From: Chrysophaeum taylorii
Taxonomy: Eukaryota; Sar; Pelagophyceae; Pelagomonadales; Pelagomonadaceae
NCBI GenBank assembly: GCA_029834535.1
Contig: JAQMWT010000477.1
Location: 1 to 38,442 of the forward strand
Direction: 5' to 3'
DNA: 38,442 bases
In this document: positions 572 to 25,076 of the stretch, one piece after another
How the letters are laid out: each line of letters opens with the position of its first letter
Position numbering within the stretch: position 1 is the first letter of the stretch
Notes under the pieces: generated by a model
Database searches by the model: none
What the model was told of the DNA's origin: nothing
Seen by the model: only the letters and a program-made list of their open reading frames with translations
Position numbers and translations under genes: made by a program

Positions 572-576
572 GCACA

Positions 577-912
577 TGTGGCGGCAACTCCCGCCTCCTA
601 AGGCTTACCCCTCTTCTAGGGCCCCCCCTTATCAGGGGCACCCTACTCCGTTCCGATGATGTCAGAGTTTTCTCTGACATCATCTTCCTTTTCCGTGACA
701 TGTGTCACCCTGATTTCTGATTTCGATTATCCTTGATCATAAAGCAACAGCCGATCCTCAAGTTGAGAGGACCAGGCGCAGGAGTTGTTTGTGGTCGCGT
801 GGCGGGAGAACGGCCATCCTCGTCCAGTGATCCCTCCAAAGGCACGGACGCGATCGGCGAGCCAGGATTCGAAGGCACGCCAGGTAGCCCCCAAAATTCT
901 CCTTACGCCACA
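577..912 (+). repeat. 5' LTR of element A
   Basis: This 336-bp copy matches 8565-8899. The only difference I found is one extra C in the C run near 620 (seven versus six). It begins TGTGGCGG and ends CGCCACA, a short imperfect terminal inverted repeat typical of LTRs. It contains a 13-bp perfect hairpin, annotated separately. Confidence 0.95.
655..684. promoter_or_regulatory. Perfect 13-bp hairpin inside the 5' LTR
   Basis: GATGATGTCAGAG (655-667) and its exact reverse complement (672-684) are separated by TTTT. The same hairpin is in the 3' LTR at 8642-8671. Its role is unknown. It could act in RNA folding, transcription termination or polyadenylation, or as a palindromic protein-binding site, since the arms contain TGACATCA, which resembles bZIP sites. 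Confidence 0.6.
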
Positions 913-1377: not shown

Positions 1378-1620
1378 ATGGAAGACGATGATGCTGCCGT
1401 CGAGCAGCTACGATATGAAGAACCGCCAAGCCGTCAGGATGAGACGAACGAGCGGAATGATGATGATGATAATGATGACGATGAAGAAGAGCACGACACA
1501 GAAGTTGACGAGGAAGAAGAGCTAAACTACAACTACGACAAGCCCACGGAGAGACCGCGGGAGGACGATCGACAGCTCCGTCAACGCGTGCAGAACCCCC
1601 GGATGCACGAAAATGAATGA
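1378..1620 (+). CDS. Small acidic ORF overlapping the gag start
   Basis: This 80-codon frame is extremely rich in Asp and Glu, with runs such as DDDDNDDDEEE. It lies in the leader of element A and ends in TGA that overlaps the gag-pol start codon (ATGAATGA at 1613-1620). It could be a separate leader peptide, or an N-terminal part of Gag reached by frameshifting. No domain is recognised. The overlap would suit termination-reinitiation, but coding status is uncertain. Confidence 0.35.
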   Translation: MEDDDAAVEQLRYEEPPSRQDETNERNDDDDNDDDEEEHDTEVDEEEELNYNYDKPTERPREDDRQLRQRVQNPRMHENE

Positions 1621-4600
1621 GTTCTACGAGGCTCACTTGCGGGCATTACGCGAAGAGAACGAACGCGCGCAAGAACGACTTTTAAAACAAATAGGGGAAG
1701 AGAACGAACGAAAAGAACGGCTACAACGGAAGGAGAACGAAGAATTAAAAGAGCAACTGCGCCGGGCCAACGCTCGAGCGGACGCCTTCCAGGAACAAGT
1801 AAGCTCGTTGACCCGTGAAAGAGACGAGTTACGTACGCCGAGTCGATCAAGGCGAGCGAGCAGCCCGGAGTCCCGAGCTGAGGAAGAGCCGCCGACTACA
1901 CGATCACGCGCGAAAGCTAGAAAGCCGCGCTATGAAGACGATGATGAAGAAGAAAAGGAGGAGACGCGCGGCGCCGGGAAGATCGACACCCAGGAGTTCT
2001 TGATGGGTTTTACGGATCGACTCGCGAGCGCGTTAGCTAAACACGATCGCAACAAGGAGCGGCGATCAACCTCTGGATTAAAAACCGAAACTTTTAAACT
2101 GGTTCTCGATGGACGCGATCAGGACCAGTTCGATTTAGATGCGGGTGCGGTGATGCGTACATTAGCCGAAGACCATTTCAGCTTGGAGAAATTCCGATAT
2201 CTGCTTCCCGCGACCCTGCGCGACACGGTCGCACCGATTTTTCGAGAACACTTAAAGCAATACGAAGACCTGTGTAAAGACCTCGATCACCCAGCGTCTT
2301 TCTATTTATGTCGGGATATCGACGATGAGGAGTACGGTTCCGTGGTACGACGGATACGACGATTGAACGAGAAGTATTGCCTCAAGATTTTGAAATATTT
2401 CCGAGAGAGTTGTCCGCTGCCAGTGACGGCAGAGGAATCATTACGAAAGTTACAATGCACGACCCAAGCGACCGTTCCGAAACGCTCTGGAGAACGTCAC
2501 GTGCATACATATTGCATTAAATTTCAGCAAGAAGCCATGGCATACTGTTCCGTGGCCAACCGAGATCTCAACGACGTGGAGATCATCTCTTACTTGATAC
2601 GTGGACTGGAGTCCGACGAATTGAAATCCCGCGTGCGAACGATGCGCAGCGGACACCAGGCGACGTATAAGACGTTTACGTCTACGTTGTCGCTGATTAC
2701 ACGGCTCGAAAACGACTTCGCCACAGCCATGGCGGGGAAGAACAGCCGAAACTCGATGAACCCCTCGAGCGGGAAGCCGCAGAAGCCGCCGCCTGGACGC
2801 GGAGGACGAGCTCTCGTCTCGGGAATGAAAGATAAAACGACGAAATATGAAGCCTTACGCCTCGAAGAGAATCCGAAAAAGTGGTTCGAGAGGCCGTGCA
2901 AGGACTGTGGGTTTTTCTTAGCGACCCACGACAAAGACGAACACGGGAACCGCGTCATTTGCAACCGCGGGCCCGACGACTACTATGTAGCGATGTGCAA
3001 ATACATTAAAGACGGCAGAAAGCCCATTTCGCGAGGACGATGGGAGAGCCGACAAAGGAAAGATAATCATTCGCGTGACGACGGTAGTTCTAATGCCACC
3101 TTCGGTTCGAGCGCTGCTCACGATATTCAGAGCAGACTCAATGATATGAGCACGCAGCTAACCACGGTTATGAGTACCGTGCAGCACTTAACAGATGGAC
3201 GCGGCCGATCGTCTTCGACACGAACAGGCCGTCGAGATAGCCGGAGCCCCCGACGCCACGACAAGAGCCGTAGTAGCTCGTGCCAGCGCCGACGGACAGA
3301 TAGCAGGAGCTCCAGCCGACATTCACGCCGCCGCCGGCGACGAAGATCTCGCGATCGAGATTCGGACGATGGTCGTTACCGAGAAGACTCGGGACAGTCG
3401 TCTGCAACGTTCGCATTTACGACCCCTTGCGGTCAACAGTTACCATTAGGAGTGACGGTGTACCCGAACACGGACACCCGCACCGACGACGCAGCCGACG
3501 CCCTTGCCGCGGCCGCATTCGAAGATCTTGCTCGCCCACCGATGGACGAGCCACCCAACGACGTGCTGACCAATCGTCGGTCTTTGGCTCAGATTTATGA
3601 GCAGATGTCGAGCGATGAGCTCGAAGATTCGAGCGAGGAACTCGAAGCTCCACGATACTGGGAAGGCGATTCAGATTCGGAAGCTGAAGAAGCTACACTT
3701 TGTGAACCAGTGTCTGCGTTAACGTTATTTGACGAGTCGTCCACGGACGACCCACCGTTTATTTTTGATGAGGAAGCCCTCGATGCCATCGGCTTCTCTT
3801 TGGACCCTCCAGAGACGACCGCTGGCGACCGAACTGGCTGTGAGCCAGACATGAATTTCTGCAGTGATAGCTCGTGCGCGCTTTCGACTGATGAGACGAT
3901 GACCAGCGCTAGTATTGCAGACGACGATTTTACGACAGAGTTGACGTCGGGGACGACGCCATCTTTTCCTGCGGACCCCTCCGAAACGGTTTCGATTACT
4001 ACGGATCGAGACACAGATACGCCGCCGGAAGAAAAGGATAGATTTATGAAGAAGATTAGCAGCGTTCTCAAGTGGGACGAAGACGAGCCGACGCGGAACC
4101 TGCAGGATTGGTGGACGAAAGCTCAGAATTTATTGCTAAAGAAGCCACCAGAACAACCGCACAGCTGCAGACTCAAAGCCGCAGCTGACACGGAACCGAT
4201 CGCCGATGCTGATGAGGATCAGCAGGCGACGAATGAATTTACAGATGCATTCTGGAAAGACGAAATGAATGATTTATGGGAGGGGTCCTTTGCTTCCGTG
4301 AACTACGAAGACCAGGATCCCCTACCAGCACTGATTCCCTCTGAGATTGTTTTGGAGGAAGAGCGGAAGCCGCCAGATAAAGAGGCTGCCGCGAGCATTA
4401 TGGCGAAGACGCCAACAACAGATAATACGAAAGCTCAAGCCGCGGTATCGATGCCCAACCCCGGAGATGAGCGATTCAGAGCCCGATGTGCTCACACTTC
4501 GTTGACGCCGCGAGATGGCAAGACGATCGAAGATGATTTGATTACCCTCAGTTGTTTAGATACGGGTTCTCTAACGTTTATGGCCTGTCACATCTACAAG

Positions 4601-7600
4601 AATCGTGACGGTCCGAAATTCTCGACGACCATCGGTGTCGATGGAATGGCCGATGTTTCTTATATTTGCCGAGAAATGGCCAAAAGGTTGACCAAAGATC
4701 AGTTGATTTTCGATGAAGGCGAACTTCCGATTAAGCGCAAGCTGTACGGATCAGGATTGAATACGACGACGATCCATCGTTGGATCGCCCTTCGGGTCGC
4801 TTTCGCCGACGACTTCGCTGCCCCCATTGTTGCTATTGTAGCCGATACGAATTATCTGTTCCTGTTGGGAGGGCGCGATATACGAGTTTTAGGAGCCATC
4901 GTGGATTTTCCCCATGATCGGATCTGTTTTTGTCGAACCCAAGTCGTCTACGGGCGCAAGAAGATTAAAGTTAAGGATGAACGAGTCGATGCACCAATCG
5001 TGACCTTTCGGTCTATTTACGATCGAAATCCGATAACCGTACCGATTTACAATCATCAACACGATGCCTTCCGGAAGAGTCTCGACCTGGTCAAGACTCG
5101 AGTTTATGCTCGTTTGAGCACGATTAAAGATCTCCGAAGCCCGCCGCCGGAACGTAAGGTAGCCATGGCTACGCGGGGACATGCTACGACCAAATTCTCC
5201 CCAGCTCCGGGAGAAGACGCGCGAGAAGTAATCGCTTATGCCGCGCGCACGCTTCAAATCGAGCCCGGTCGAACGTACAATCTACCGGTTATTTTGTCGA
5301 AGCCTATGGAAAAAGGACAGGTTTTCGTCGCTACGTTTGCTGAGAACGAGCAGTTGGGAGTTGTCGAAGGAATGTGTTCTTCTTACGAAGAGCGCAACCG
5401 GTCCGCTGCTCGGGTGGCGGTTACTGCCACGGAAGAAGTGCTGACGGTCGTCACTCAAGGCGAAGTCCTTGCGATTGGTGATATCGTTAGGTACGAAGAT
5501 GAGTTGAACGTCTCTACGATCAACGAACTTACGAAAGAATGTAAAGAGGGATACGACAAGGGGAACCTTTCTTTCACCGTTTCTGTCGCTAGTCACTTGA
5601 CGCGATGCGACGAATCTCCCCCGCCGATGCTGCTGAGCACGGTGCAGAAGGACGCTATGACCGCTATGACGGACAAGTCCCCCCTCAAACGACCTGAAGG
5701 CAGCGACGATTTCGCTCGAAGGTCAGAAACAGATGAAAAGAAATGCCGCGAGATCACCGAAGCGGAGATCCGCCGCCGATATGAAAAGGTTCAATGGCTT
5801 CCAATCACTTATCGCAAGGTGGTGATGCTGTTCAGTGGAGCCGGAGGCAGTACTTTAGGTCTCCAACGAGCCAACGAAACGTGTGGGACGTCGTTTCGAG
5901 TCGTGCTAGCACTCGATGCGTCGGACACCGCCAACCAGATCCACCACAAGAACTTTCCGAATATTCCTGTGGTGCAGCACACATTGTGTGGTCGTTATGT
6001 TACAACCTTACGGTTGATCGAATCTTATTTACCCTACGCGGAATGGTCGTCGTCGATGTGTGTCGCGTCACCACCCTGCGTACACTCCGCTCTGTGCAAT
6101 TTGACCTCCAGAGATGTTGGGAAAGGAGTTACCGCTACCCACTGGACGATGAAATTATGCAAGATGGCTGGTTTCTTCATGTGGTTGATAGAGCAGGAGG
6201 CTTCGATTATTTCTTACGTTGCACGTTTGCACCCTTACGTATACGTCGTCAATTTTTGCGACATCACTCCTAGTTTGATGAGCTGTCGCGTGCGCTTGTT
6301 AGTTTCCAGCCATCCGCTCCATTTGCGCGCAGTTCCAAAGACTTGCCAGAATATGCAGCAAAAGTTCGCCGCAGCACTTGGCTACGCCGACGAACGACAT
6401 TTACTTCAGATGAACAATTTAGGATCATCACGAGCCGCGACAGATGCAGCTTATACTGTTACGCGTGTCCCGCTTCGCGTAGGACCGCACCGTTCCGATT
6501 ACAGATCTCTGAATCTGGAAATGACTTCGGAGTTGCTGACGATGCCCCCTGATTTTGAGTGGGCCGGCCTCTCCAAAACTACCTCATTGAAACACTTGGC
6601 GTCCGTCGTGCCACCTGACACGATAGCCTTATTAATGCTCGATCTGCACAACTCTGTGACCAAGAAATTTCACCTGAGCGGCGAAGCTTTGCCGTCAGCG
6701 TTGAGTCCTGCAGACCGACCGTTTGATTATTATTTACAAATTGATGAAACCACCCTTCGTCACGTACAAGTTCCGCTGTTAAACACGCGCACACGTGTAA
6801 TAAGATGGGTGCCGACTGATGATCTTCAAGATCGCACCAAATGGAAACCTCCAGAGGTACCGTTGATTCCGCCTGCAATAGATGAGCCGGGGACGTCTCA
6901 TGCTTTTTCTGCTGGCCCCCCCCGACAACCAAATTTAGACGTTCCTCCAGATCCTGAGCGAGATCGGGAACCGAAGATTAAGAGTGAACCGAGTGTTCGT
7001 GTCAAAGGCGAGAAGATCAACAAAAGCCACCCGGAAGTGAAACTAAAATACGAGAAAAAGTTCGATGTGCCATGGAAAGATGCGCCGCGCGATGCCGAGG
7101 GTGCACCACTGCCGCAGACCCCTGAGCATATCAAGGACAACGAAGCAATGAAAGTTAAAATTCCTACGAAGGAAGAAGTTGACAAGGTTGTGCAGGAGCT
7201 GGGAATTCCTGACAATCCGCACTTAGATGACGAGGCGAAACTGATGCTTCGTCACTGTGTGCAATATTCATGGGCCTTTTTGGACCCGATTATGAGACCT
7301 GTGGACTCGCCTCCTGTGTCTCTACGATTCAAAGACGCGAATCCGCGACCGATAAAGATGACGCCCTACCGATTGACGCCTGCGAAACTCGAGTGTCTCC
7401 GCAAGCAGATCAGCGAGTGGTGCCGGGATGGAGTCATTCGTCCGGCCAACTCACCTTGGGGCTTTCCTGTGTTGATGCTTCCGAAGAAGGGAGCTGAGAT
7501 TGGAACGTCAAACGCGTTCCGTGCTGCAGTTGACTTACGTCAGCTCAACGATCAATTGGTCAATGACAGTTGGCCAAACATTCGTCAAGATGATGCTTTA

Positions 7601-8707
7601 GCCTTTCTCGCGATGAGACGATGGCGGACATGCATTGATATTAGATGGGGATACCACAACCTTCGTCTGGATCCGGCAGCGCAGGACGCTGTCACGATGG
7701 TTAGCCCACTTGGCGCTCATAGTTTCTTGCGATTACCTCTAGGTGTGAAGACGGCCGGAGCTCTTTTCTGCAAGCAAATGGCGAGCGACCTTTCGAAATG
7801 GATGTATCAAGACTTGGTTGCGTTTGTTGACGATATTATGATGGGATCCGACGATCTTCATCGACATTTACAAGTTTTGATCGAAGTGATGTGTCATTTG
7901 GCACAGAGAGGGTACAGCGGTCGAACCGCGAAGTTCCACCTTCTCAAGGATGATATAGAATTTCTGGAACACATTTCTACCCCAGAAGACTCTCCGCCCG
8001 AAGAACGACGTGTTCATGTAAGTCAGATCACGCCGGTGATGGTACCTCCGATCGTTGATCAAACTATCCGCAAACCCGAAGAAACCTTCCGTGATGATTA
8101 TCAGCACGGCAAGTTTGTTGTTTTCCGGATTCCTGACCGGAAGCGCTCTGATTGGCGCAAGAAGATTTATGTTGCCGAAGATTACGAGCCTTACGATTAC
8201 CAAAATGATCGTGTCGCTCTACATTTCTATTCCGATTTGGGTCCGAACGATGATGTCGCTTATTTCAAGCCGACCTCTCACCTTTCGCACCGCAAGCTCA
8301 AGCCCGAATTCAAGGACGTTGAAGGTCGAAGTTTCACCGACAAGTCCCGAATTTCCTCCAACACAACTCCTTGTGTCACGGATTTCGCTCCGCACGAGAT
8401 TGACGTGTTGGTCCCCAAGTTTATTTTACGCAGTGGTCGAGTTCCTGAACCGATCATCACCCGCGTTTACCAGAAGATTCGTTCACGAGATGCTCGTAAG
8501 GCGACGCCGCGCTCCTCGCGCGAGCACCTCGCTGGGGCAGCTCGAATTCTTACCAGGGGAGTCCTGTGGCGGCAACTCCCGCCTCCTAAGGCTTACCCCT
8601 CTTCTAGGGCCCCCCTTATCAGGGGCACCCTACTCCGTTCCGATGATGTCAGAGTTTTCTCTGACATCATCTTCCTTTTCCGTGACATGTGTCACCCTGA
8701 TTTCTGA
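1613..8707 (+). CDS. Gag-protease-methyltransferase-RT polyprotein of element A
   Basis: One 2364-codon frame. By residue: 1-75 is a charged coiled coil. About 120-380 is a helical capsid-like Gag. About 428-450 has a Cys/His cluster beginning CKDC that may bind zinc. About 520-590 is Arg/Ser-rich. About 980-1105 is a retropepsin-like region ending LLGGRDIRVLGAIVDF. About 1400-1680 is a cytosine-5 methyltransferase-like domain. About 1880-2125 is a Ty3/gypsy reverse transcriptase with FVDD at 2071-2074. The tail resembles sequence that follows integrase in some gypsy Pol proteins. RNase H and integrase are absent and the RT joins directly to the tail, which suggests an in-frame internal deletion. 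Where other retropepsins have D-S/T-G the aligned motif reads DGMADVS. The frame ends inside the 3' LTR. Start chosen at the ATG of MNEFYEAH, which leads straight into the coiled coil. Confidence 0.9.
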   Translation: MNEFYEAHLRALREENERAQERLLKQIGEENERKERLQRKENEELKEQLRRANARADAFQEQVSSLTRERDELRTPSRSRRASSPESRAEEEPPTTRSRAKARKPRYEDDDEEEKEETRGAGKIDTQEFLMGFTDRLASALAKHDRNKERRSTSGLKTETFKLVLDGRDQDQFDLDAGAVMRTLAEDHFSLEKFRYLLPATLRDTVAPIFREHLKQYEDLCKDLDHPASFYLCRDIDDEEYGSVVRRIRRLNEKYCLKILKYFRESCPLPVTAEESLRKLQCTTQATVPKRSGERHVHTYCIKFQQEAMAYCSVANRDLNDVEIISYLIRGLESDELKSRVRTMRSGHQATYKTFTSTLSLITRLENDFATAMAGKNSRNSMNPSSGKPQKPPPGRGGRALVSGMKDKTTKYEALRLEENPKKWFERPCKDCGFFLATHDKDEHGNRVICNRGPDDYYVAMCKYIKDGRKPISRGRWESRQRKDNHSRDDGSSNATFGSSAAHDIQSRLNDMSTQLTTVMSTVQHLTDGRGRSSSTRTGRRDSRSPRRHDKSRSSSCQRRRTDSRSSSRHSRRRRRRRSRDRDSDDGRYREDSGQSSATFAFTTPCGQQLPLGVTVYPNTDTRTDDAADALAAAAFEDLARPPMDEPPNDVLTNRRSLAQIYEQMSSDELEDSSEELEAPRYWEGDSDSEAEEATLCEPVSALTLFDESSTDDPPFIFDEEALDAIGFSLDPPETTAGDRTGCEPDMNFCSDSSCALSTDETMTSASIADDDFTTELTSGTTPSFPADPSETVSITTDRDTDTPPEEKDRFMKKISSVLKWDEDEPTRNLQDWWTKAQNLLLKKPPEQPHSCRLKAAADTEPIADADEDQQATNEFTDAFWKDEMNDLWEGSFASVNYEDQDPLPALIPSEIVLEEERKPPDKEAAASIMAKTPTTDNTKAQAAVSMPNPGDERFRARCAHTSLTPRDGKTIEDDLITLSCLDTGSLTFMACHIYKNRDGPKFSTTIGVDGMADVSYICREMAKRLTKDQLIFDEGELPIKRKLYGSGLNTTTIHRWIALRVAFADDFAAPIVAIVADTNYLFLLGGRDIRVLGAIVDFPHDRICFCRTQVVYGRKKIKVKDERVDAPIVTFRSIYDRNPITVPIYNHQHDAFRKSLDLVKTRVYARLSTIKDLRSPPPERKVAMATRGHATTKFSPAPGEDAREVIAYAARTLQIEPGRTYNLPVILSKPMEKGQVFVATFAENEQLGVVEGMCSSYEERNRSAARVAVTATEEVLTVVTQGEVLAIGDIVRYEDELNVSTINELTKECKEGYDKGNLSFTVSVASHLTRCDESPPPMLLSTVQKDAMTAMTDKSPLKRPEGSDDFARRSETDEKKCREITEAEIRRRYEKVQWLPITYRKVVMLFSGAGGSTLGLQRANETCGTSFRVVLALDASDTANQIHHKNFPNIPVVQHTLCGRYVTTLRLIESYLPYAEWSSSMCVASPPCVHSALCNLTSRDVGKGVTATHWTMKLCKMAGFFMWLIEQEASIISYVARLHPYVYVVNFCDITPSLMSCRVRLLVSSHPLHLRAVPKTCQNMQQKFAAALGYADERHLLQMNNLGSSRAATDAAYTVTRVPLRVGPHRSDYRSLNLEMTSELLTMPPDFEWAGLSKTTSLKHLASVVPPDTIALLMLDLHNSVTKKFHLSGEALPSALSPADRPFDYYLQIDETTLRHVQVPLLNTRTRVIRWVPTDDLQDRTKWKPPEVPLIPPAIDEPGTSHAFSAGPPRQPNLDVPPDPERDREPKIKSEPSVRVKGEKINKSHPEVKLKYEKKFDVPWKDAPRDAEGAPLPQTPEHIKDNEAMKVKIPTKEEVDKVVQELGIPDNPHLDDEAKLMLRHCVQYSWAFLDPIMRPVDSPPVSLRFKDANPRPIKMTPYRLTPAKLECLRKQISEWCRDGVIRPANSPWGFPVLMLPKKGAEIGTSNAFRAAVDLRQLNDQLVNDSWPNIRQDDALAFLAMRRWRTCIDIRWGYHNLRLDPAAQDAVTMVSPLGAHSFLRLPLGVKTAGALFCKQMASDLSKWMYQDLVAFVDDIMMGSDDLHRHLQVLIEVMCHLAQRGYSGRTAKFHLLKDDIEFLEHISTPEDSPPEERRVHVSQITPVMVPPIVDQTIRKPEETFRDDYQHGKFVVFRIPDRKRSDWRKKIYVAEDYEPYDYQNDRVALHFYSDLGPNDDVAYFKPTSHLSHRKLKPEFKDVEGRSFTDKSRISSNTTPCVTDFAPHEIDVLVPKFILRSGRVPEPIITRVYQKIRSRDARKATPRSSREHLAGAARILTRGVLWRQLPPPKAYPSSRAPLIRGTLLRSDDVRVFSDIIFLFRDMCHPDF
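5816..6655 (+). other. Cytosine-5 DNA methyltransferase-like domain inside element A Pol
   Basis: Seen in the frame: a SAM-binding motif I (LFSGAGGSTLGLQRAN, from 5828); an acidic residue after a hydrophobic strand (VVLALD), as in motif II; the catalytic Pro-Cys loop ASPPCVHS (Cys codon 6077-6079); an Arg-x-Arg strand SCRVRLLVSS (from 6281) at the place of motif VIII; and a C-terminal ELLTMPPDF plus SVVPPDTIALL resembling motifs IX and X. The order and spacing match C5 methyltransferases. Where the family has the Glu-Asn-Val motif VI, this frame reads VVNF, so the conserved Glu seems absent, and the Gln of motif VIII is Cys or Ser. The fold is supported; activity is uncertain. Confidence 0.8.
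7261..7980 (+). other. Reverse transcriptase domain of element A
   Basis: Classical Ty3/gypsy RT blocks are in order: an RPIKMTPYRLTP segment, IRPANSPWGFPVLMLPKK, the D-L-R-Q-L-N block, the TCIDIRWGYHNLRL block with the first catalytic Asp, a FLRLPLGVKTAGALF block, and AFVDDIMM with the two Asp of the usual Y/F-x-D-D motif (7823-7834). The domain ends soon after EFLEHIS, where the thumb and RNase H would normally continue. Confidence 0.9.
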
Positions 8708-8899
8708 TTTCGATTATCCTTGATCATAAAGCAACAGCCGATCCTCAAGTTGAGAGGACCAGGCGCAGGAGTTGTTTGTGGTCGCGTGGCGGGAGAACGG
8801 CCATCCTCGTCCAGTGATCCCTCCAAAGGCACGGACGCGATCGGCGAGCCAGGATTCGAAGGCACGCCAGGTAGCCCCCAAAATTCTCCTTACGCCACA
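8565..8899 (+). repeat. 3' LTR of element A
   Basis: This 335-bp LTR matches the 5' LTR apart from one C in a C run. It starts right after GGGGAGTCC, a weak polypurine tract, and ends at CCACA followed by the GCACA target duplication. The gag-pol frame continues 143 bases into it before its stop. The hairpin is at 8642-8671. Confidence 0.95.
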
Positions 8900-8921
8900 G
8901 CACACACCAAAAAATGAAGAC

Positions 8922-10629: not shown

Positions 10630-11640
10630 CAAGTACAGGCCAGTAAGTTCGCCAGTAAGTTCACCTAGTCCATATCTCTAACCCCAGTAAGTTCACCTGG
10701 TCCCAGTAAGTTCACCTAGTCCCAATCTCTAACCCCAGTAAATTCGGCGTAAGCCCACTCGTGCTCACACCCACTCACCCCACTCTCCTTTGAACTCGTC
10801 GCTCTCACCCCCGCCAATCTAAGCTGCTTTGATCCGCACACGCCGCTAAGCTTTGAGTTTACTCTAAAAACCCCAGTAAGTTCACACTTGGTCTCAGTAA
10901 GTTCACCTGGTCACTAAGTTCACCTAGTCCCAATCTCTAACCTCCGTAAGTTCACCTGGCCCCAGTAAGCTCACCTGGTCCCAGTAAGTTCACCTACAGT
11001 GCGCGTGTAGAAGCCGGGAGGGGGCTTATCGGTATTGCGCAGCACGTGTGGGGTAGGGTGGAGTCGTCGACTCAGAAGAGCATATCCTCGGGGTTGCCGA
11101 TCGACAGAGAGCCACGTAGAGCTGGACGTGACAGAAGACGGGCTTGGGCAAGAGGACGCCGACCTCGCGGGGCGTCTGGCCCTGGCTCTTGTTGATCGTT
11201 AGGCGTCGGCGGGCCTTAAGGGATACAGGTTGGAGATGCCTCGGCGACACACGACACGATCAATCATGTATCTGGTACCGTTGCAGTGGCCGTGCGAGAC
11301 GGATCGAGGTTGCGAAGACACCTTAAGCTCGCGATCAAAGTCAGCATGCCGTTGGTTGTCAGGAAGTCGAAAACTCGACTGTAAAGAGCGAGGCGTCGGC
11401 TTCCGACCCAACCTAGTCTGCCGAAAAGAACTCCGACGCCTCGTCTCCGGGAAAAAAAGGCCGCGGTCATGCGCGCGTTGTCAGCATCGACAACATCGTT
11501 TCGACGGGGCGTGAGAATGGCGCGCTGGCTAAAAGAGCCGCCGCGGGTCGTGGAAATAGTCTGAGAGGTCGCCGTAGACGGCTTGGTGGATCAATGCCTG
11601 CCTCGCGGGCCTACCTGGTCCTTACCCTGAATCGGGGGAC
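10630..11640 (-). mobile_element. Helitron-like remnant H1 (reverse)
   Basis: Read on the reverse strand, the 3' end is ...CTGTACTTG followed by T, matching the other copies' CTGCACTTG end. Inside this end lies an array of GGTGAACTTACTGG-type subterminal repeats, then a remnant of the RepHel helicase C-terminus, then the CCCGATTCAGGGTAAGG block shared by the family. The usual CTGT-rich 5' end is missing and R repeats follow instead. Orientation is set by the helicase frame. Confidence 0.75.
11026..11560 (-). pseudogene. Helitron Pif1-like helicase C-terminal fragment (H1)
   Basis: The reverse strand encodes the last helicase motifs of a Helitron RepHel protein. TINKSQGQTPREVGVLLPK and VFCHVQLYVALCRS match the motif V/VI region, normally INKSQGQT...LPxPVFSHGQLYVALSR. 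An upstream frame has LRNLDPSR, and another keeps CNGTRYMI, so the domain is broken by frameshifts. Rep and the N-terminal helicase are absent. A helicase of this type unwinds DNA during rolling-circle-like transposition; this copy is dead. Confidence 0.8.
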
Positions 11641-12180
11641 AAAACCCCCCACAAACCCACCCACATCCGTCATGCTCCCCACACACACCCCCCTCTTAGC
11701 AGTCGACATTTAAAGACAAACACCGGCGGCACCCAGGCCGCCCGATCCCAGCAGGACGTCACCCTTCGTCGCACATACGTCCGGCGGCAGCATGCGTACG
11801 ACCTACGGGCGGGGCCTGTCCTCTCTTCGCCTGCCCCACGACTCGGCGATGACCCCGACTAGGTCCCGCGTACTTATCTCCGCCCGTCAGGCACATCCCT
11901 CCTACCCCACAAACCCACCCACATCCTTCATGCTCCCCACACACACCTCCCTCTTAGCAGTCGACATTTACAGACAAACACCTGCGGCAGCATGCGTACG
12001 ACCTACGGGCGGGGCCCGTCCTCTCTTCGCCTGCCCCACGCCTCGGCGATGACCCCGACTAGGTCCCGCGTACTTATCTCCGCCCGTCAGGCACATCATT
12101 CCTACCCCACAAACCCACCCACATCCTTCATGCTCCCACACACACCCCCCTCTTAGCAGTCGACATTTAAAGACAAACAC
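11641..12180 (-). repeat. GC-rich R repeat, about three tandem units (reverse)
   Basis: Read on the reverse strand, units begin TTTAAATGTCGACTGCTAAG, continue with a G run, GTGTGTGGGGAGCATGA and a GC-rich body, and end near GGGTGACGTCC. Unit starts are near 12175, 11976 and 11715, so spacing varies (about 199 and 261 bp). The same unit occurs forward at 12963-13230, 22392-22450 and 32141-32364, in the last two cases inside Helitrons. Confidence 0.75.
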
Positions 12181-15991: not shown

Positions 15992-17033
15992 TCCTAACTA
16001 CTAATCGACAGATGTTTGTCTGTCTGTCTGTCTGTTTGTCTGTTTGTTTGTCCCTCGATTTAGGGTAAGGATCAGGTAGGCGCGAGAGTAATGATCAGGT
16101 AGGCGCGAGAGCCAGACAGTGATCCTCCAAGCCGTCTACGGCGACCTCGCAGACTATTTCCACGACCCGCGGCGGCTCTTTCCACGCGCCATTCTCACGC
16201 CCCGTCGAAACGATGTCGTCGATGCTAACAACGCGCGCATGACCGCGGCCTTTTTTTCCCGGAGACGAGGCGTCGGAGTTCTTTTCGGCTGACTAGGCTG
16301 GGTCGGAAGACGACGCCTCGCTCTTTACAGTAGAGTTTTCAACTCCCTGACAACCAACGGCATGCTTACTTTGATCGCGAGCTTAATGTCTTCGCAACCT
16401 CGACCCGTCGCACGGCCACTGCAACGGTACCAGATACATGATCGATCGTGTCGTTGTCACCGAGGCTCCTCCAACCTGTATCCCTTAAGGCCCGCCGACG
16501 CCAAACGATCACCAAGAGCCAGGGCCAGACGCCCCGCGAGGTCGGCGTCCTCTCGCCCAAGCCCGTCTTCTGTCACGTCCAGCTCTACGCGGCTCTCTGT
16601 CGATCGGCAACCCCGAGGATATGCTCTTCTGAGTCGACGACTCCACCCTACCCCACACGTGCTCCGCAATACCGATAAGCCCCCTCCCGGCGTCTACACG
16701 CGCACTGTAGGTTAACTTACTGGGACCAGGTGAACTTACTGGGGTTTGAGATTGGGACTAGGTGAATATAGTGACCAGGTGAGCTTACTGGGACCAGGTG
16801 AATTTACTGGGGGTTTTAGAGTAAAGGGTTTTTAGAGTAAACTCAAAGGTTGGCGGCGCGTGCGGATCAAAGCAGCTTGGATTGGCGGAGGCGAGAGCGA
16901 CGAGCTCAAAGGAGTTGGTGTGAGCTAGGTGAACTTACTGACCAGGTGAACTTATATGAAACTTACTGGGACCAGACCTAAACTTACTAGGGTTAGAGAT
17001 TGGGAGTAGGGTGAACTTACTGGCCTGCACTTG
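15992..17033 (+). mobile_element. Helitron-like element H2, complete 1042-bp non-autonomous copy
   Basis: It begins TCCTAACTACTAATCGACAG followed by ATGTTTGTC and CTGT repeats. It carries the CCTCGATTTAGGGTAAGG block, a helicase C-terminal remnant and a GGTGAACTTACTGG array, and ends GGCCTGCACTTG. Comparison with uninterrupted MITE copies fixes both ends: no bases of the target were duplicated or lost apart from one ambiguous T. A 5'-TC end, a T after the 3' end, no target duplication and a RepHel remnant identify a Helitron relative, but the 3' end CTTG departs from the usual CTRR. Confidence 0.85.
16121..16678 (+). pseudogene. Helitron helicase C-terminal remnant (H2)
   Basis: Frames encode LQAVYGDLADYFHDPRRLF, an alarm of Helitron helicase motifs including AILTPRRNDVVDA, then NSLTTNGMLTLIASL, and in another frame ITKSQGQTPREVGVLSPK with VFCHVQLYAALCRS. 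The expected TINKSQGQT is mutated to ITKSQGQT and at least one frameshift separates the halves, so no helicase can be made. Confidence 0.75.
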
Positions 17034-17423
17034 TTTGTACTAAGACATACTCAACGGATCGCTGAGCTATGTTCATTTGTACTCAAGCAGTATGTGCCGC
17101 CACGCCGCGAGATCGTCGCGATGGAACTAGTCCCCATAGTGAAGTCGGCATCCTTTCGTCCCCTCACGCAAAAAAAGGAAAAAGCCCACGCGTTGTAGGA
17201 CCCGTCGTTGCGGCGCGGGCTAGTCTCGTTTTCTTATCCGACCCTACCGGAGGCTATGACACTTACCCCCCCACCACGTCATTCCCTTATCGCTAGTCTA
17301 ACGCCCCATTCCAGTTGTCACATGCTAGCAGGCGATCGTCTCGATCGACCCTGTGCTCGACTTCACGGCGACTACTCATCGGCTTCAGTTCATTGCTACG
17401 TGTTCGGTTCGTTGTCGTCTATC

Positions 17424-17714
17424 ATGTCCTCGATCGAAATTAAAGATAGCAAGCTTTCGCAAAAACTCGATGCCTTCAGCGGTGAGCGACATCTCTTTCA
17501 TCAGTGGACACGTCGTCTTGAGAGCATGATCATCTCCACCGGCGATCATATAATCTTGACCCATGATACTTGGACTAGCATCTCGGAATCTGGCTGCTCT
17601 GAAGATGAATTTCGGGTCAAGCAACAATGTTGGTACTCCAGAGAGCTACACTATTATGTGTGCGACACTGGAACATTTCACACCTATCTCTACACGAGGG
17701 TTTTCTCTCCGTAA
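17424..17714 (+). pseudogene. Copia-type Gag N-terminal fragment
   Basis: From ATG 17424 the frame reads MSSIEIKDSKLSQKLDAF, then HLFHQWTRRLESMIIS, the arrangement of Copia Gag proteins where a short L-x-G/F-x-N/H-W-W block opens the protein. The similarity stops near residue 80 and the frame ends at 17712-17714. It seems cut off by later sequence, perhaps the start of element B. About 170 bases upstream of the ATG have no frame and may be its leader. Confidence 0.5.
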
Positions 17715-18294
17715 TACGGTTTTCCCTCGTTCCTTCCTTACCCCCTTCCGCAATTATTTATTTCATGACTTTGAAGAACCCAGTCTGAAGCTCTTTTCCA
17801 ACATGGAGTAGGCCTCCAGGTGCGTACCGTCAGGTACGGGGTTGTCTGTTTAATTAACAGAGGCTTCGTTCCTCGTTGTCAGTGTAAACGCTTCTATGGG
17901 ACCTAATGTCCTTAAGGAGTTAGGGCTTAAATCCCTACCTTGTGTAGTAGCATGTGACAAGCGGAATGGTCTGTACACGCCTAAGACTGCACGCAGTCTC
18001 TACCATGTACCCGGAGAGGGTCAAATCTCTCCAGGTTATGGGCACAGATGCGTAAGTGTGTCAGCCCAACTGTGTTGTACGTATAAATGGAGTGATCAAT
18101 TTACGCCTGATCACGAGTACAATGCGACTATGTGTTTGGCGGTGGTCTACTGTACATATTTGTTGTGTGACGGTATGTGCCCACCAGTTAATTTGGTTTG
18201 TGACCGAGTTGGGCCGGTCACTGGTCATATGCACTCGCATAGCCAACAAAATTAAAATTTTTCCTACACAAGCCGCGGAAACTTGTACGGGTTT
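17715..18294 (+). other. Leader or LTR-like region of element B
   Basis: No convincing gene is present. A TATAAA-like sequence (GTATAAATGG, near 18080) and position upstream of the element B gag suggest a 5' LTR or leader, interrupted by SINE-like insertions. No second LTR copy is in the window, so this cannot be confirmed from repeats. The frame at 17896-18255 has no recognisable domain. Confidence 0.3.
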
Positions 18295-18306
18295 TTCCTC
18301 CTATTC

Positions 18307-18624
18307 TAACTAACTAACTTCAGACCTCTCCCGAGCATGGGAGCCAGGCCGGACCGGCAGGAGCCGGTACGGAATCACAGAGGAAAATCACGCAGTTGGG
18401 GCAGAGCGACGGACGTGTTGGTCCACGAACAATCGACCTGTCCGTCGCGTTCTGCCCAACCGAGCGAACCCCATCCCAGCGCGGACTTTCCGGGTGCTAA
18501 CCGGCCAGCCCGGGAGGCGAGCAGGCACAGTCTCACTCCGGGACGGCCGGGGCCGCCGCAGGGAGCAAGCGTGTTAGGCGCCGTCCTCCATCGCAACCAA
18601 CGGTTAGCGATCGCAGGGTTAGGG
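18307..18624 (-). mobile_element. SINE-like retroposon with (TTAG)n tail, copy 1 (reverse)
   Basis: On the reverse strand it ends in GAGAGGTCTGAAG followed by GTTA repeats (18307-18318). It is flanked by a perfect 12-bp duplication TTCCTCCTATTC (18295-18306 and 18625-18636). Its 3' 60 bases match the two forward copies closely; the middle is diverged. A simple-repeat 3' tail and target duplications of varying length are typical of SINE or LINE-end retroposition. Confidence 0.75.
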
Positions 18625-18731
18625 TTCCTCCTATTCCCCAACAAAAGACTGCCTGCTCGAGAATTAATCCATTCTTCAGTCTCAAGTCATCCTGTTTTTA
18701 AATAGCATGTTGATTTGTTTGGTCTTGTAAA

Positions 18732-18990
18732 ATTGGGCGGGCCGGTTGGCAGCCGGAACGTTCGCAGTGGGACGGGGTATGGCCGGGGGGCGCAGACGGA
18801 AGGTTATCGACGAGTTGGTTGTCAGTCACATCGCGGTGTCCTCGTCGCATGGCGACAAGCTTGATGATCACTCTCCGCCGACCCACCTTTCGGCGCCCCT
18901 CGTCTACAGGCCCGTGATTCCGGACTGGCTCCTGTCGGTCCGGCCTGGCTCCCATGCTCGGGAGAGGTCTGAAGTTAGTTAGTTAGTTAG
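18732..18990 (+). mobile_element. SINE-like retroposon with (TTAG)n tail, copy 2
   Basis: A body starting near GGGCGGGCCGGTTGGCAGCC and ending GAGAGGTCTGAAG plus TTAG repeats is flanked by TTGTAAA (18725-18731 and 18991-18997). It is closely similar to copy 3 over about 245 bp. The body is GC-rich; the flanks are AT-rich. Confidence 0.75.
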
Positions 18991-19114
18991 TTGTAAATAA
19001 GCCCACGCTTAAAGTAGCGTACTGTACACATAACCCGCACTTGAGAAACCCTTCATCCTTTTGTGTCGAATATGTCTATCAATCCTATAACCTATTCTTT
19101 AATAGGTCACAACC

Positions 19115-20413
19115 ATGTCAAAACAAAAACCAATATCCACTACGGATATCTACAAACAAGAACAAATCCTGGTTGATAAAATTAACGCAGGATTGCGTTT
19201 CCCGACGTAGGTTGGCACCTATTCGCCTTCCGGGCGGGCCGGTTGGCAGCCGGAACGTTCGCAGTGGGACGGGGTATGGCCGGGGGCGCAGACGGAAGGT
19301 TATCGACGAGTTGGTTGTCAGTCACATCGCGGTCTCCTCGTCGCATGGCGACAAGCTTGATGGTCACTCTCCGCCGACCGACCTTTCGGCGCTCCTCGTC
19401 TACAGGCCCGTGATTCCGGCCTGGCTCCTGTCGGTCCGGCCTGGCTCCCATGCTCGGGAGAGGTCTGAAGTTAGTTAGTTAGTTAGCGTTTCCAAGACAA
19501 CTCAACCAAGGTGAGCTTGCAAATTGAGGTGCTTCGCCGGCATATGACAAGTCCATACGCGGACGCGTTATTCTGCTTCGATTCATATGAAGCTTACACC
19601 CGGAATGCTCCGGAGTATAACCAACTTCTTGAACAAGAAGCTGATATCATCTTCGCTCAATGGAAAGCTGAACAAGTAAACGATTTAAACTTACCTGATG
19701 AAGATGCCCTGCCTGATCATCTTAAAACTTGGCACATCAACTCATCACATCAACTAACAGTTGATGTCCATAATAATCTCGAACGACTTTATTACCAAGA
19801 GTCATACAATCTCGTTCGTCCCGAATTAAATGAGGATGTTAAACGTGTCCTCACTTTATTAGATACCCGATTCCCTAAATCAATTGTGTATGATTCATCT
19901 CTAACTAGCATATCCTTTACAGGTCTCTCTAATACCGACTGGATCAAACACTGCGAAACTTATGCTGGTTTCTTGTACACATTTTTTAATCTGGAATCAC
20001 AAGGCAAACCCGCACTCGCTATGTGGCCTCAATTACAGGAAATATATGCACTTACTGCACATCCTAATAAGCTACGTGCAGTAATGCTTTTAGCTTACCA
20101 TTACTATGAGACAGTGTCTTGTACAGATGTCACTGAGCTCAAATCTCAGTTTAATCGAATGTCTTTAAATGTTAATTGGTATGCCCATGTACTTGTCGAA
20201 AAACTCCTTGCTTTCCTATCTCAGGCAAGGCAATTAAATAACGATGAAGCATCAATCCAATTTAATGATTCCATAATCACTCTTAAAGCTCGCGAGGAGA
20301 TCTACCGTCTATATGCTAATCCCTCGGATCACGAGCGCTATTCTCAATCTTTATTGGAATGGTGTAAACTCTACGAGACACGCTCTGGGAATAACACGAT
20401 TCAGCATTGTTAA
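19115..20413 (+). pseudogene. Element B Gag, interrupted by a SINE-like insertion
   Basis: An ATG at 19115 (MSKQKPISTTDIYKQEQIL) opens a frame that is broken at 19203 by a SINE-like copy, which brings an in-frame TAG. After the insertion the same frame resumes and runs to TAA 20411-20413. The added length (291 bases including the duplicated target) is a multiple of three, so the two parts belong to one frame. The long part is a helical, Leu- and Tyr-rich protein with no named domain, placed where Gag should be. Codon use is AT-rich compared with element A and the host genes. Confidence 0.65.
19203..19485 (+). mobile_element. SINE-like retroposon with (TTAG)n tail, copy 3
   Basis: This 283-bp insertion ends AGGTCTGAAG plus TTAG repeats and is flanked by a perfect 8-bp duplication GCGTTTCC (19195-19202 and 19486-19493). 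It sits inside the element B gag frame. Its 5' 30 bases (CGACGTAGGTTGGCACC...) are absent from copy 2, consistent with variable 5' truncation. Confidence 0.8.
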
Positions 20414-21977
20414 AGCTAGTTGATCCTAACGACGTTCGTCCACTATTGGAATTCTTGTTAAAGATATACAACGAAACAAAATTTTCCTCTAACCGACGCT
20501 TGGATAAACCCGCTTCCTGGATCCCTTACATCCCTGGTACTACCGCTACCAAGCCACCTAAGGTATTATTGATGGATACTATTCATCAATCCCACGACTC
20601 TCTAAACAACGCTTACTCGTTGTTAGCTACTGTAGCTGGACAGTCTGGCTTCAACGCTCGTAAGCTTCGTCATGCAAAAGATAAAGTATCGACAATTTCA
20701 CCTCGTGATACGTCGTACTATCGTCCACCTTCAAACTATAACGTCAAAGGTACCAGCTTCGATCGTCCTGTCTACTCATCTTCTTCCAACCGTAATGCAC
20801 GCTCTAATATGTCTCTTATGGACCGGGCTACTTATCAGGTTGATCGTCTTCGCCACCTGTTTGGTAAATTGCAGGAAGCGAATCCCAATCCTTCCACCGA
20901 CTCTAAAATGGTACAGGAGGAAATGAAAAGCTTACTGAGTACCCTCTGGACAACCGCTTCTCGAGCTTCGACACAGTCCTTAGATCCTGACGAAGCCACC
21001 CAAGTTCATCTCTACTTATCTCGAGTTGATACTATGTCCAATACCATTGTGAACCTCTTAGAAGCCGATAAGGAATCTCATGTTTCAGAAGAAAAATATC
21101 AAGCTGAAACATCTGCTCCTGAAGCGTCCCCCAGTGATGCGGGGCAGAGGGGGACTGCTGATACAGAGAAAATGTTCCACACTTTTCTGTCCATTAAAGA
21201 TGATGAAATCGATAACATCCCTCAGCCGCTATTGCAGCACATAAATGCTAAAGCTCAGAATGCTATCGTTCGTCGTCAAGCTCGGGAAACTTCCTCGCAC
21301 TCTGAGCTCCCCAATTATCTACCCAACGAAGATAATGAAGATGGCACAGATCCCCCTGTGTTGCTACCAAAATTAAGCACTGGTTCTGGTTTTACACTCG
21401 TCGTTGTGCCTTCCGAACAAACGCAAAGTTCCATGACACAGTACGTGTTTGGTCAAAGCTCAACACATGCCTGTTATGCAACACTGCTTAAACTGTACAA
21501 CGAGTACAATTTGCCGCTACTGACTACGCCAGGATATGCTGATACATGTGCTTCTCAACATGTAATTAACTTTCAACGTTATGCTGATCCTATTCACATC
21601 GTAAAGCTACCCGAGTCCTTATCACATGCTATCCAGACTGCTACGGATACGCAGAGTATCACACATGCTATAATTATAAGGACTGTCATTCCCGCTCTCC
21701 CAAAGCATCCAACGTTGCGCTTTTCCTACCCAAGCAAAACGACCATAACGATCCCGATCTGCACATCATCAGTATGACTCAATGGGGAAAAGATAAACTT
21801 GGTATACATCCTTATGGAGTTGAATTTAAAGGACAATCATCTATCCAGAGTAAAATTGGTGATAATGTCAAGATTACTTTGTTTAGACTTAATAGCCTGT
21901 TGCCTACTCTACCAATTTATTCGCTACAACAAGCAAAAGCGCGTAAAATGGAACTTCGCTCACTACAGTTCAGACTA
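20407..21977 (+). pseudogene. Element B Gag C-terminus and Copia-like protease region
   Basis: This frame overlaps the end of the upstream Gag frame by seven bases in the -1 phase. It has a charged middle part and then GYADTCASQHVINF (Asp codon at 21541), which aligns with the D-S/T-G-A-S active site of Copia retropepsins with Cys in place of Gly. A frameshift before 21774 moves the protein into another frame, which reads DLHIISMTQWGKDKLGIH, the pattern that follows Copia proteases (LLSVSQL...G). That frame is cut at 21977 by Helitron H3. The -1 overlap may be programmed frameshifting or a simple indel; no canonical slippery heptamer is visible. Confidence 0.6.
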
Positions 21978-21994
21978 TCCTTACTACTTATCGA

Positions 21995-22391
<397 letters not shown>

Positions 22392-22508
22392 TTTAAATGT
22401 CGACTGCTAAGAGGGGGGGGGGTGTGTGGGGAGCATGAAAGATGTGGGTGGTCTGTCTGTCCCTCGATTTAGGGTAAGGATCATGTAGGCCCATGAGCCA
22501 GGCAGGCA

Positions 22509-23068
22509 TTGATCCTCCAAGCCGTCTACGGCGACCTCGCAGACTGTTTCCACGACCCGCGGCGGCTCTTTCAGCGCGCCATTCTCACGCCCCGTCGAAA
22601 CGATGTTGTCGATGCTGACAACGCGCGCATGACCTCGGCCTTTTTTTCCCGGAGACGAGGCGTCGGAGTTCTTTTCGGCCGACTAGGTTGGGTCGGAAGA
22701 CGACGCCTCGCTCTCAAGAGTCGAGTTTTGAACTCCCTGACAACCAACGGCATGCTGACTTTGATCGCGAGCTTAAAGTCTTCGCAACCTCGACCCGTCG
22801 CACGGCCACTGCAACGGTACCAGATACATGATCGATCGTGTCGTTGTCACCGAGGCTCCTCCAACCTGTATCCCTTAAGGCCCGCCGACGCCAAACGATC
22901 ACCAAGAGCCAGGGCCAGACGCCCGGCGAGGTCGGCGTCCTCTTGGCGAAGCCCGTCTTCTGCCACGTCCAGCTCTACGTGACTCTCTGTCGATCGGCAA
23001 CCCCGAGGATATCCTCTTCTTGGTCGACGACTCCACCCTACTCCACACGTGCTGCGCAATACCGATAA
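22509..23068 (+). pseudogene. Helitron helicase C-terminal remnant (H3)
   Basis: Frames show LQAVYGDLADCFHDPRRLF, AILTPRRNDVVDADN, NSLTTNGMLTLIASL and, in a second frame, ITKSQGQTPGEVGVLLAK with VFCHVQLYVTLCRS. These are the last motifs of RepHel with substitutions at conserved sites and at least one frameshift. Confidence 0.75.
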
Positions 23069-23468
23069 GCCCCCTCCCGGCGTCTACACGCGCACTATAG
23101 GTTAACTTACTGGGGCCAGGTGAACTTACTGGAACCAGGTGAACTTACTGAGATTGGGACTAGGTGAACTTAGTGACCAGGTGAACTTACTGAGACCAAG
23201 TGTGAACTTACTGGGGCTTTTAGAGTAAACTCAAAGCTTAGCGGCGTGTGCGGATCAAAGCAGCTTAGATTGGCGGGAGTGAGAGCGACGAGCTCGAAGG
23301 AGAGTGGGGTGAGTGGGTGCGGGTTTACGCCGAACTTACTGGGGTTAGAGATTGGGTTTACCCCGAATTTACTGGGGTTAGAGATTGGGACTAGGTGAAC
23401 TTAACGGGAACAGGTGAACTTGCTGGGGTTAGAGATTGGGACTAGGTGAACTTACTGGCCTGCACTTG

Positions 23469-24620
23469 TGTGCTTTTAATGAACAACGCGAAATGCTCAA
23501 ACTATATTCCACCCTCATGGAACGAGTAATTTACGTCCCATGGCTTAAAACCATCCGGGAGTCAATGCATTCGCAGCTGGCTTACATACGCAAGCATTTC
23601 CCACCTCCTGTATGACGCAAGGTTACAGCACGTTTGCTCCGCATAGTAACTTCATCTCCTAGCCCACGAATACCTACGGTAACTTTACTTTGTTCTGGGA
23701 TGTCCACTCCTGCATTCCTGGCTTGCGCTTCTAATGACTTGCAAATCAACATCAACGTTAAAGTTCTTGTTGAGAGCGACGACAATATCACGCACATGTT
23801 ACGAAGACGTTCTGGTATTTCCATCGAAGTTTTCCCATCCCTACCTAAGTTTCTGACATATCTCCATCGAGCATCGGACGCTGAACGTGCACGATATTAC
23901 ACCGATATAGTGGAATTGACATCACCATGCACAAATCGCAACATAACCAATGGGAGATCCATTTCCACCTTCGAGCGTGGTATGGATGATTCCTTGTTTC
24001 CAAGTGCTCTAAGTGTACTTGAGCTTCTAAAGCCGCTTGTTCTTTTCATGGAAATGACACCACCACACTCCGCATCGTATGAAGACCATATACGAGTTGC
24101 TAATCTCATCTTCTCAACGATGCACTATACGGTGGATATATGTGACCGATTTCCCTTGCTATCTGTGTGGAGATTATCAAGCCAGAGAAAGATGGATCCT
24201 CGTTGCACGCAAATATAACACCGGCCCTCTTGATCTGCTTTCATGGCCTAACAAACGAGTCACTTCCTTTCTGGACATTGCAGACCACGCTAATTCCATC
24301 AGTCGCGAGTTAATAGTCGACTAGTCGACGAACCTTGGACGCAGGTCTTTCCCGACATACCATTCGTGTCCACACCTAAAACCTACAATATTTTTAGTCG
24401 TACAGGATCCGTGCGCTTAACTGTGGCCGAGCTTGAAACCTTAACTATGCTGTTCCTTCGTCTGCACTCTAATAAAACAGTCGAACATCCCAGTCAAGAT
24501 GAAATGGAGGGCATTTCTAACTTTCGCCTGGGATTCTTGACTAATTCAAGAAAACCACTTGCTTGCATGAGATCCCCTATTGAACTCAAAGCTTTCGTGC
24601 TTCTCTATAATATTATGGAA
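23469..24620 (+). pseudogene. Element B cytosine-5 DNA methyltransferase, broken
   Basis: The frame resumes right after Helitron H3 in the phase of the protease region. Motifs in order: a degenerate SAM-binding stretch TLLCSGMSTPAFLA (from 23682); DIVELTSPCTNRN with the catalytic Pro-Cys (Cys codon 23928-23930); FMEMTPPHS with Glu at 24051 where ENV is expected; GDYQARERWILVA, a perfect Gln-x-Arg-x-Arg motif VIII (24178-24192); and VRLTVAELETL (from 24411), as in motif IX. Breaks: in-frame TGA at 23613-23615, a frameshift shortly before 24178, and an 8-bp tandem duplication at 24314-24329 that shifts the frame. Such enzymes transfer methyl groups from SAM to cytosine C5. This copy is dead but its catalytic motifs are better preserved than in element A. 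Confidence 0.75.
24314..24329. repeat. 8-bp tandem duplication TAGTCGAC x2
   Basis: Two adjacent copies of TAGTCGAC lie in the methyltransferase region. With one copy the frames on both sides would be in the same phase, so the duplication causes the frameshift. It looks like the footprint left when a transposon with 8-bp target duplications (hAT type) excised. Confidence 0.55.
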
Positions 24621-25076
24621 CGCTTATTCCCTAAATCTATCACATTACCTGTGTCCTTTCGTATTACAACTATCGAATCTAACCAACCATCTCATAGGTT
24701 ATTTTTAAAAAAATCCTCTTTTTCCTCCATCATTTACATCACCGGTGGAAGACATAGAGGCGGAGACATAACAGTTTCTAACTCCTCTTCTAAGTACCAG
24801 ACACATATATATGCTTTTGGCGAAACCTATACCTTCCTAACACGTGATGCCGGAATCGATAAGACTGCTTCTCTCGAACCTGTTACTGGTTTTCTTTGGC
24901 TTTGCCAAGCATACCATCATAATAATGAAAATCAAAACGCGCGTCATTTAGTACAAGCACTGGTCACCTATACTTCTCCTGTATTTCACGATTCTTTTGT
25001 CTTCTACCCTCAGGAAAATCGTCCAGAATTTATCGATAAAATGTGTGCTTTAAGTGACACAAGTGCAGGCCAGTAA
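24621..25076 (+). pseudogene. Element B C-terminal domain, possibly 2-oxoglutarate dioxygenase-like
   Basis: In the same frame as methyltransferase motif IX the protein continues with FSSIIYITGGRHRGGDITVS and then ETYTFLTRDAGID and LEPVTGFLWLCQAYHH. This order (hydrophobic strand, H-x-G-G, acidic turn, P-V-T-x-G-x-x-x-x-L-x-x-Y) resembles the second half of prolyl-4-hydroxylase-like 2-oxoglutarate/Fe(II) dioxygenases. The metal-binding His expected before PVT is not evident, so it may be degenerate or the match wrong. Real similarity ends near 25059, where Helitron H4 begins; the last codons are Helitron sequence. No RT or integrase follows. Confidence 0.35.

Follow-up and report, generated by a model that had tools for sequence, protein, structure and literature searches.

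A highly diverged C5-cytosine-methyltransferase-like domain in the Pol of a Ty3/gypsy retrotransposon family of the pelagophyte Chrysophaeum taylorii

Introduction

Why would a transposon carry an enzyme of the class that hosts use to silence transposons? Cytosine methyltransferases borne by retrotransposons are already known, one of them as part of a gypsy Pol. In the excerpts available to us of de Mendoza et al. (2018; PMC5890265), KnitGypsy-Dnmt3 of Klebsormidium nitens is a Gypsy-type element with DIRS-like repeats that encodes a Dnmt3 within its Pol, further families are described from Symbiodinium, some retrotransposon methyltransferases methylate CG de novo in yeast, and the role of these domains is called unclear. 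DNMT3 members in Copia elements, which have long terminal repeats (LTRs), and in DIRS elements of streptophytes and dinoflagellates appear in a 2025 paper (PMC12344493, likewise in excerpt). Here we analyze a window of 38,442 nucleotides, contig JAQMWT010000477.1 (C477) of the 70.8-Mb, 697-contig assembly of Chrysophaeum taylorii, in which the Gag-Pol frame of a Ty3/gypsy element contains a C5-cytosine-methyltransferase-like domain. An earlier reading of the bare sequence (the original prediction) had called this domain and had rightly treated its class as known.

What is new is a divergent variant, without two Dnmt2 motifs, in an element of ordinary LTR structure and in a lineage that the 2018 excerpts do not name. 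None of the papers listed in our literature search reports a methyltransferase-bearing gypsy family of C. taylorii, and in the available main text of the C. taylorii genome paper (PMC10366177) the strings "transpos", "repeat" and "retro" do not occur.

Results

Identity of the domain

What identifies the domain as a C5-methyltransferase? The Pfam profile PF00145 (DNA_methylase; curated cut-off, 22 bits) matches amino acids 1402-1457 of the whole window frame at 25 bits (E 1.5e-5) and the 370-aa window piece alone at 27.7 bits (E 2.3e-6), and each of the seven further pieces of this gypsy family (family 1) that were scanned passes the cut-off (24.4-27.0 bits). The match in the window domain is confined to motifs I-II. 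Beyond it the motifs stand in order, as predicted; when the domain was shuffled 200,000 times, a pattern describing the full order, composed after the sequence had been seen, never arose, and its post-motif-IV part arose 26 times. All 35 loci (33 distinct places) have the motif IV Cys; in a single locus, L035, the second Pro of SPPC, beside the Cys, is changed to Leu. The window SPPC aligns to the SPPC of all 32 Dnmt2 proteins compared, and MAFFT likewise aligned the RxR of the domain with that of Dnmt2 and placed its PP in the region of motif X. The candidate motif VI, EQE, was not aligned to the Dnmt2 ENV, which the domain lacks, and CFT, invariant in 31 Dnmt2 proteins, reads AYT (alignment A4). 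Between the window copy and copy L033, the stretch from motif IV to motif VIII is the best kept (80 of 87 residues identical, as against 38 of 54 across motifs IX-X).

A second candidate for motif VI, VVNF, in which Val would replace the catalytic Glu, was set aside, a choice that is unproven, because the Glu of LIEQE lies 38 residues past the Cys, as Glu119 does past Cys81 in M.HhaI, and because a model strand at 127-130 precedes LIEQE, with VVNFC forming the next strand.

A model guided by Dnmt2 relatives predicts a whole class-I S-adenosylmethionine (SAM)-dependent methyltransferase fold that matches solved cytosine methyltransferases, its best Foldseek match being Dnmt2/TRDMT1. The profile match and the SAM-binding Rossmann core on which the original prediction staked its claim are thus both found, the latter in a model steered by Dnmt2 relatives. 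When the domain is compared with Dnmt2 in hhalign, a probability of 97% is obtained over motifs I-IV, SPPC included. Among solved proteins, phmmer at E <= 10 lists Dnmt2 alone for both subfamilies of the element, with E-values (human, 0.046-0.055; insect, 0.096 and 1.5) of which none is significant alone. The alignments comprised the window copy with 13 further loci picked for diversity (A1), 31 (A2) and 32 (A4) Dnmt2 proteins picked by eye for coverage from 120 listed of 936 found, and 9 of the 28 family-2 loci described below (A3). A large protein database yielded no homolog of the domain at E <= 0.001 among 5949 candidates, nor among 7997 scored, IMG/VR held no match for the domain, for the fuller copy L031 or for family 2, prokaryote genomes gave none, and phages gave no significant match (best E 0.4); these searches preselect by length, shared words or patterns, so that distant relatives could be missed.

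Copy number and selection

The search for further copies suggested in the original prediction gave at least 152 places in two subfamilies, A and B. In the search with the window domain (best 111 of 1092 candidates scored), 85 of the 111 are free of in-frame stops as judged by eye; in that with subfamily B (best 111 of 1074 candidates scored), 57 matches are at least 85% identical, 16 of which overlap the first search. Some places may be assembly duplicates, since near-identical ones occur on contigs C10 and C297. The subfamilies are about 78% identical across the 370-aa piece and 93-94% across the reverse transcriptase (RT). An RT search (best 150 of 982 candidates) found a listed domain match within 3 kb upstream of 68 of 150 places, in 61 of them with 520-540 bp between the two matches; pairing was made only among the matches listed, so the remaining 82 are not to be read as domain-free.

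The domain is under purifying selection in both subfamilies since a time at which synonymous sites neared saturation. Pairwise omega (the ratio of nonsynonymous, dN, to synonymous, dS, divergence) was computed from 33 of the 35 loci (L010 and L012 duplicate L031 and L032), or fewer where a segment was unmatched, with stop-bearing copies retained and stop codons skipped. Within subfamily A the domain has the lowest value of six segments (0.23), followed by the protease-like segment (0.31), RT (0.37), the linker (0.44), the spacer (0.45) and the gag end (0.66). Between A and B, omega is 0.075 for the domain (466 of 500 bootstraps usable), 0.028 for RT, 0.097 for the linker and 0.19 for the spacer. 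Another way of counting sites gave 0.22 and 0.071 for the domain within A and between A and B, respectively. Synonymous divergence between the subfamilies is similar in the domain (pS 0.69) and in RT (0.67), which indicates that the two travelled together, and most likely the domain was, to judge from these sequences, already present in the common ancestor of A and B.

The element in the window and its fuller copies

The element in the window is young: its LTRs are alike except for one C, and it is flanked by a 5-bp target duplication, GCACA (Table 1). Its LTRs are 98-99% identical to those of copies L031 and L032, both on contig C5, whose stop-to-stop frames of 3063 and 3067 aa contain in sequence, by Pfam, the methyltransferase (with a match below the cut-off in these copies), RT, RNase H, an H2C2 zinc finger and the DDE integrase core rve. 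The order RT, RNase H, integrase assigns the family to Ty3/gypsy. The young gypsy-type element and the uninterrupted polyprotein of the original prediction are accordingly borne out, as is the position of the domain between protease and RT, with DTGS (a motif read by eye) upstream and RVT_1 downstream; a Pfam scan of the window Gag-Pol gave no match for the protease region.

Two features go beyond that prediction: the candidate motif VI, and the loss of RNase H and the integrase core from the window copy, whose frame is still open (Pfam; alignment to L031 and L032). Across 1583 aa the window copy shares 95% identity with L031; the alignment then jumps 2,160 bp and resumes in the last 178 aa. 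We regard the window copy as a deletion derivative that is non-autonomous, and its integration would depend on fuller copies. The last 61 aa of its frame (from 8522), which run into the 3' LTR, have no counterpart in the L031 frame.

Two side observations concern the same frame. The gag part (1613-3298) shows no DNA-level alignment with L031 or L032, copies that are elsewhere 96-97% identical, a pattern that points to gag modules being swapped among elements. The linker downstream of the domain contains, at 6977-7054, three hydrophobic-K-x-E strings (IKSE, VKGE and LKYE) that resemble SUMO sites.

Table 1. Coordinates of the LTR element and its methyltransferase-like domain in the window
Feature	Position	Strand	Basis or remarks
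Target site duplication GCACA, left copy	572..576	+	Read at element edge
5' LTR	577..912	+	336 nt, TG...CA; exact repeat extended by reading both ends
Gag-Pol open frame	1613..8707	+	2364 aa; stop within 3' LTR
Retropepsin-like protease	4502..4999	+	Motif only, by eye: DTGS at 4559-4570, later GGRD segment
C5-cytosine-methyltransferase-like domain	5795..6667	+	291 aa; Pfam, hhalign to Dnmt2, guided model, fold search
Motif I FSGAGG (SAM binding)	5831..5848	+	Locus alignment, motif pattern
Motif IV SPPC, presumed catalytic Cys	6068..6079	+	Cys codon of ASPPC at 6077-6079
Candidate motif VI LIEQE	6185..6199	+	Glu kept, ENV not; Glu 38 residues past Cys; model strand just before
Candidate motif VIII CRVR (RxR)	6284..6295	+	Both Arg in 35/35 loci (33 distinct places)
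Motif IX-X region SELLTMP ... ASVVPP	6527..6616	+	SELLTMP 6527-6547, VVPP 6605-6616; PP kept, GN lost
Linker, methyltransferase-like domain to RT	6668..7300	+	Interval between domain and RT matches varies little across paired copies
Reverse transcriptase, with FVDD	7301..7966	+	RVT_1 at aa 1957-2118, E 2.3e-10
Deletion junction	7988..7991	+	4-nt overlap; 2,160 bp of L031/L032 gone, length from alignment coordinates
Remnant of polyprotein C-terminus, downstream of integrase core	7988..8521	+	98% identity to the last 178 aa of L031
3' LTR	8565..8899	+	335 nt, TG...CA; differs from 5' LTR by one C within a C run
Target site duplication GCACA, right copy	8900..8904	+	Read at element edge

Other methyltransferases of the genome and other features of the window

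A genome search with PF00145 gave at least 57 places (best 123 of 474 candidates scored). One is a Dnmt2-like protein of 360 aa on contig C634, 100% identical to a database protein recorded under C. taylorii, and another, L037, matches profile positions 2-315 and is, to judge from its architecture, presumably DNMT5-like. Pelagophytes are reported to have DNMT5a in the available part of PMC9998398. Of the other 55 places, 28 loci (L038-L065) were compared, and 28 of 28 align as one family, family 2, a C5-methyltransferase with LPCQ and ENV that scores up to 46 bits with PF00145. Its domain order was taken from one copy followed downstream (L052 with L066): a DGGAS protease-like motif, the methyltransferase, an integrase match (18.2 bits, below cut-off) and RVT_2 (3.6e-39). 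Integrase before RVT_2 is the Ty1/copia order. The gypsy domain and the family-2 domain show no detectable relationship, which fits separate captures without proving them.

By eye, a broken second, copia-like element lies in the window at 17208-25076 (+), with gag and protease-like frames, a repeat insertion and a methyltransferase-like frame. This frame (23634-25076) represents a third family, with the strings CSGMSTPAF, TSPC and FMEM and at least 150 scored genome matches including itself; its motif-like strings found no statistical support in profile and sequence searches. Near motifs IX-X, family 2 weakly matches family 3 (27.3 bits; as a single comparison, E 0.004). In the copia families a TET-like oxygenase was suspected by eye between motifs VIII and X and then rejected, since neither profiles nor solved sequences support it, and the region is more simply read as a target-recognition region.

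Elsewhere the window contains two intronless host genes, one (25898-27229) for an aminotransferase class-V protein, which we take to be NFS1-like, and one (34554-36146) for an EF-Tu-type GTPase. A frame at 29321-30373 has a SWIM zinc finger match just under the cut-off and is perhaps a remnant of a MULE-type transposase. A repeat family with direct and inverted copies, mostly 88-98% alike, occupies 31343-34317, 16085-16931, 22475-23319 and 10651-11643.

Discussion

We propose that the domain is a true, if strongly diverged, C5-cytosine methyltransferase, long fixed in the Pol of a C. taylorii Ty3/gypsy family, and we regard this explanation as a whole as probable. The domain would be freed from Pol or remain tethered to the reverse transcriptase, catalysis would proceed via the retained Cys, Glu and RxR, and cytosines of the element's own nucleic acid would be methylated during or after reverse transcription, which would alter host treatment of the new copy. 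Judged by its residues, the domain is rather likely to be catalytically active; that it methylates the element's own nucleic acid in this manner is possible, at somewhat less than an even chance.

Several observations weigh against this proposal. The predicted fold was obtained only with Dnmt2 rows in the alignment and with no negative control, and the unguided model (pLDDT 35) was useless. A 14-copy profile gave no significant solved protein and placed the unrelated GGA1 level with Dnmt2 (E 0.2 each). PF00145 falls below its cut-off in the long polyproteins L031 (18.4 bits) and L032 (18.7 bits), and profiles lend no support to the residues past motif IV (hhalign probability 0.35%). Motif VI has EQE in place of ENV, QxRxR lacks its Gln and motif X its GN. 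With respect to selection, the domain is under weaker long-term constraint than RT, whose omega between A and B is lower, and the linker piece is nearly as constrained as the domain, dS between A and B is close to saturation, and the loci were picked by domain similarity, which lowers the domain's dN within A. Finally, the element shows no CpG depletion (observed/expected 1.33; two host genes, 1.27 and 1.46), and among 29 copies the excess of singleton C>T changes at CpG is not significant (17 of 184 versus 24 of 382 sites; Fisher p 0.23). Lasting CG methylation of integrated copies is consequently not supported, and DNA methylation by the element, of itself or of the host, as suggested in the original prediction, found nothing in its favor. 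RNA or cDNA may be the substrate.

Could the domain be catalytically dead, serving Pol as a structural module or one that binds nucleic acids? In favor of this, motifs VI, VIII and X are deviant and the C-terminal half goes unrecognized by profiles; we nevertheless think it unlikely, given that none of the 35 loci departs in the Cys, the candidate Glu or either Arg and that motifs IV-VIII are the best-kept stretch in the comparison with L033. An RNA cytosine methyltransferase of Dnmt2-like ancestry, acting on element RNA or a tRNA primer and not on DNA, would account for the exclusive listing of Dnmt2 by phmmer, the hhalign probability and the missing CpG mutation footprint. Those phmmer E-values are not significant alone, however, Dnmt2 was the only DNMT family used in the hhalign comparison, N-terminal SAM-binding halves resemble each other among C5 enzymes, and the domain has lost ENV and replaced the invariant CFT, so that we consider such an enzyme unlikely as well. 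One copy alone, and the window copy is a deletion derivative, could give the look of a host gene fragment picked up by chance in a few copies, without selection; such a passenger is already contradicted, to the point of being scarcely credible, by the at least 152 places in two subfamilies, the stop-free majority of listed matches, the A-B omega of the domain and its joint travel with RT.

Returning to the domain as a diverged C5-methyltransferase, we offer one further idea, which is tentative and on balance doubtful: both LTR superfamilies in one alga would have separately put a C5-methyltransferase right after the protease, and the gypsy one would be a compact lineage of its own, apart from all known DNMT families, acting on the element's RNA or cDNA in the particle rather than on chromosomal DNA. 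To the puzzle of transposons that carry the enzymes of their own silencing, the C. taylorii family contributes an enzyme that is divergent, copies that are young and a host among the stramenopiles whose genome also has a copia-type family with such a domain, additions that make the question open to bisulfite sequencing and simple enzyme assays.

How does the family compare with known systems? The domain resembles Dnmt2/TRDMT1 in its best Foldseek match, in the phmmer listing for both subfamilies and in the profile match over motifs I-IV; it differs in that ENV and CFT are not kept, in its short VIII-IX region and in its place inside a Gag-Pol polyprotein. In orchids, too, Ty3/gypsy elements have captured an enzyme that modifies nucleic acids, an m6A demethylase (PMC9289625, in excerpt), which acts as an RNA demethylase and not as a methyltransferase. 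SymbioDIRS-Dnmt3 and SymbioLINE-Dnmt of Symbiodinium (PMC5890265, here and below in the excerpts available) are also many-copy retrotransposon C5-methyltransferases of an alga. Those DIRS elements carry a tyrosine recombinase and those LINEs an endonuclease, whereas the C. taylorii family is an LTR element with a DDE integrase, and neither a tyrosine recombinase nor a LINE endonuclease is among the Pfam matches of L031 and L032; SymbioLINE-Dnmt elements also show reduced CG, and no such reduction is seen in the C. taylorii element. Since KnitGypsy-Dnmt3 already combines a gypsy Pol with a Dnmt3 (PMC5890265), the novelty that the original prediction had allowed for the position between protease and RT could not be shown. 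KnitGypsy-Dnmt3 and the C. taylorii family share a C5-methyltransferase in a Gypsy Pol frame and a domain under purifying selection. The enzyme of KnitGypsy is a Dnmt3; the C. taylorii domain could not be assigned to Dnmt3 or to another DNMT family, and its weak matches in the PDB set are to Dnmt2. Unlike KnitGypsy-Dnmt3, with its DIRS-like repeats, the window copy has two direct LTRs and a 5-bp target duplication, and its host is a stramenopile.
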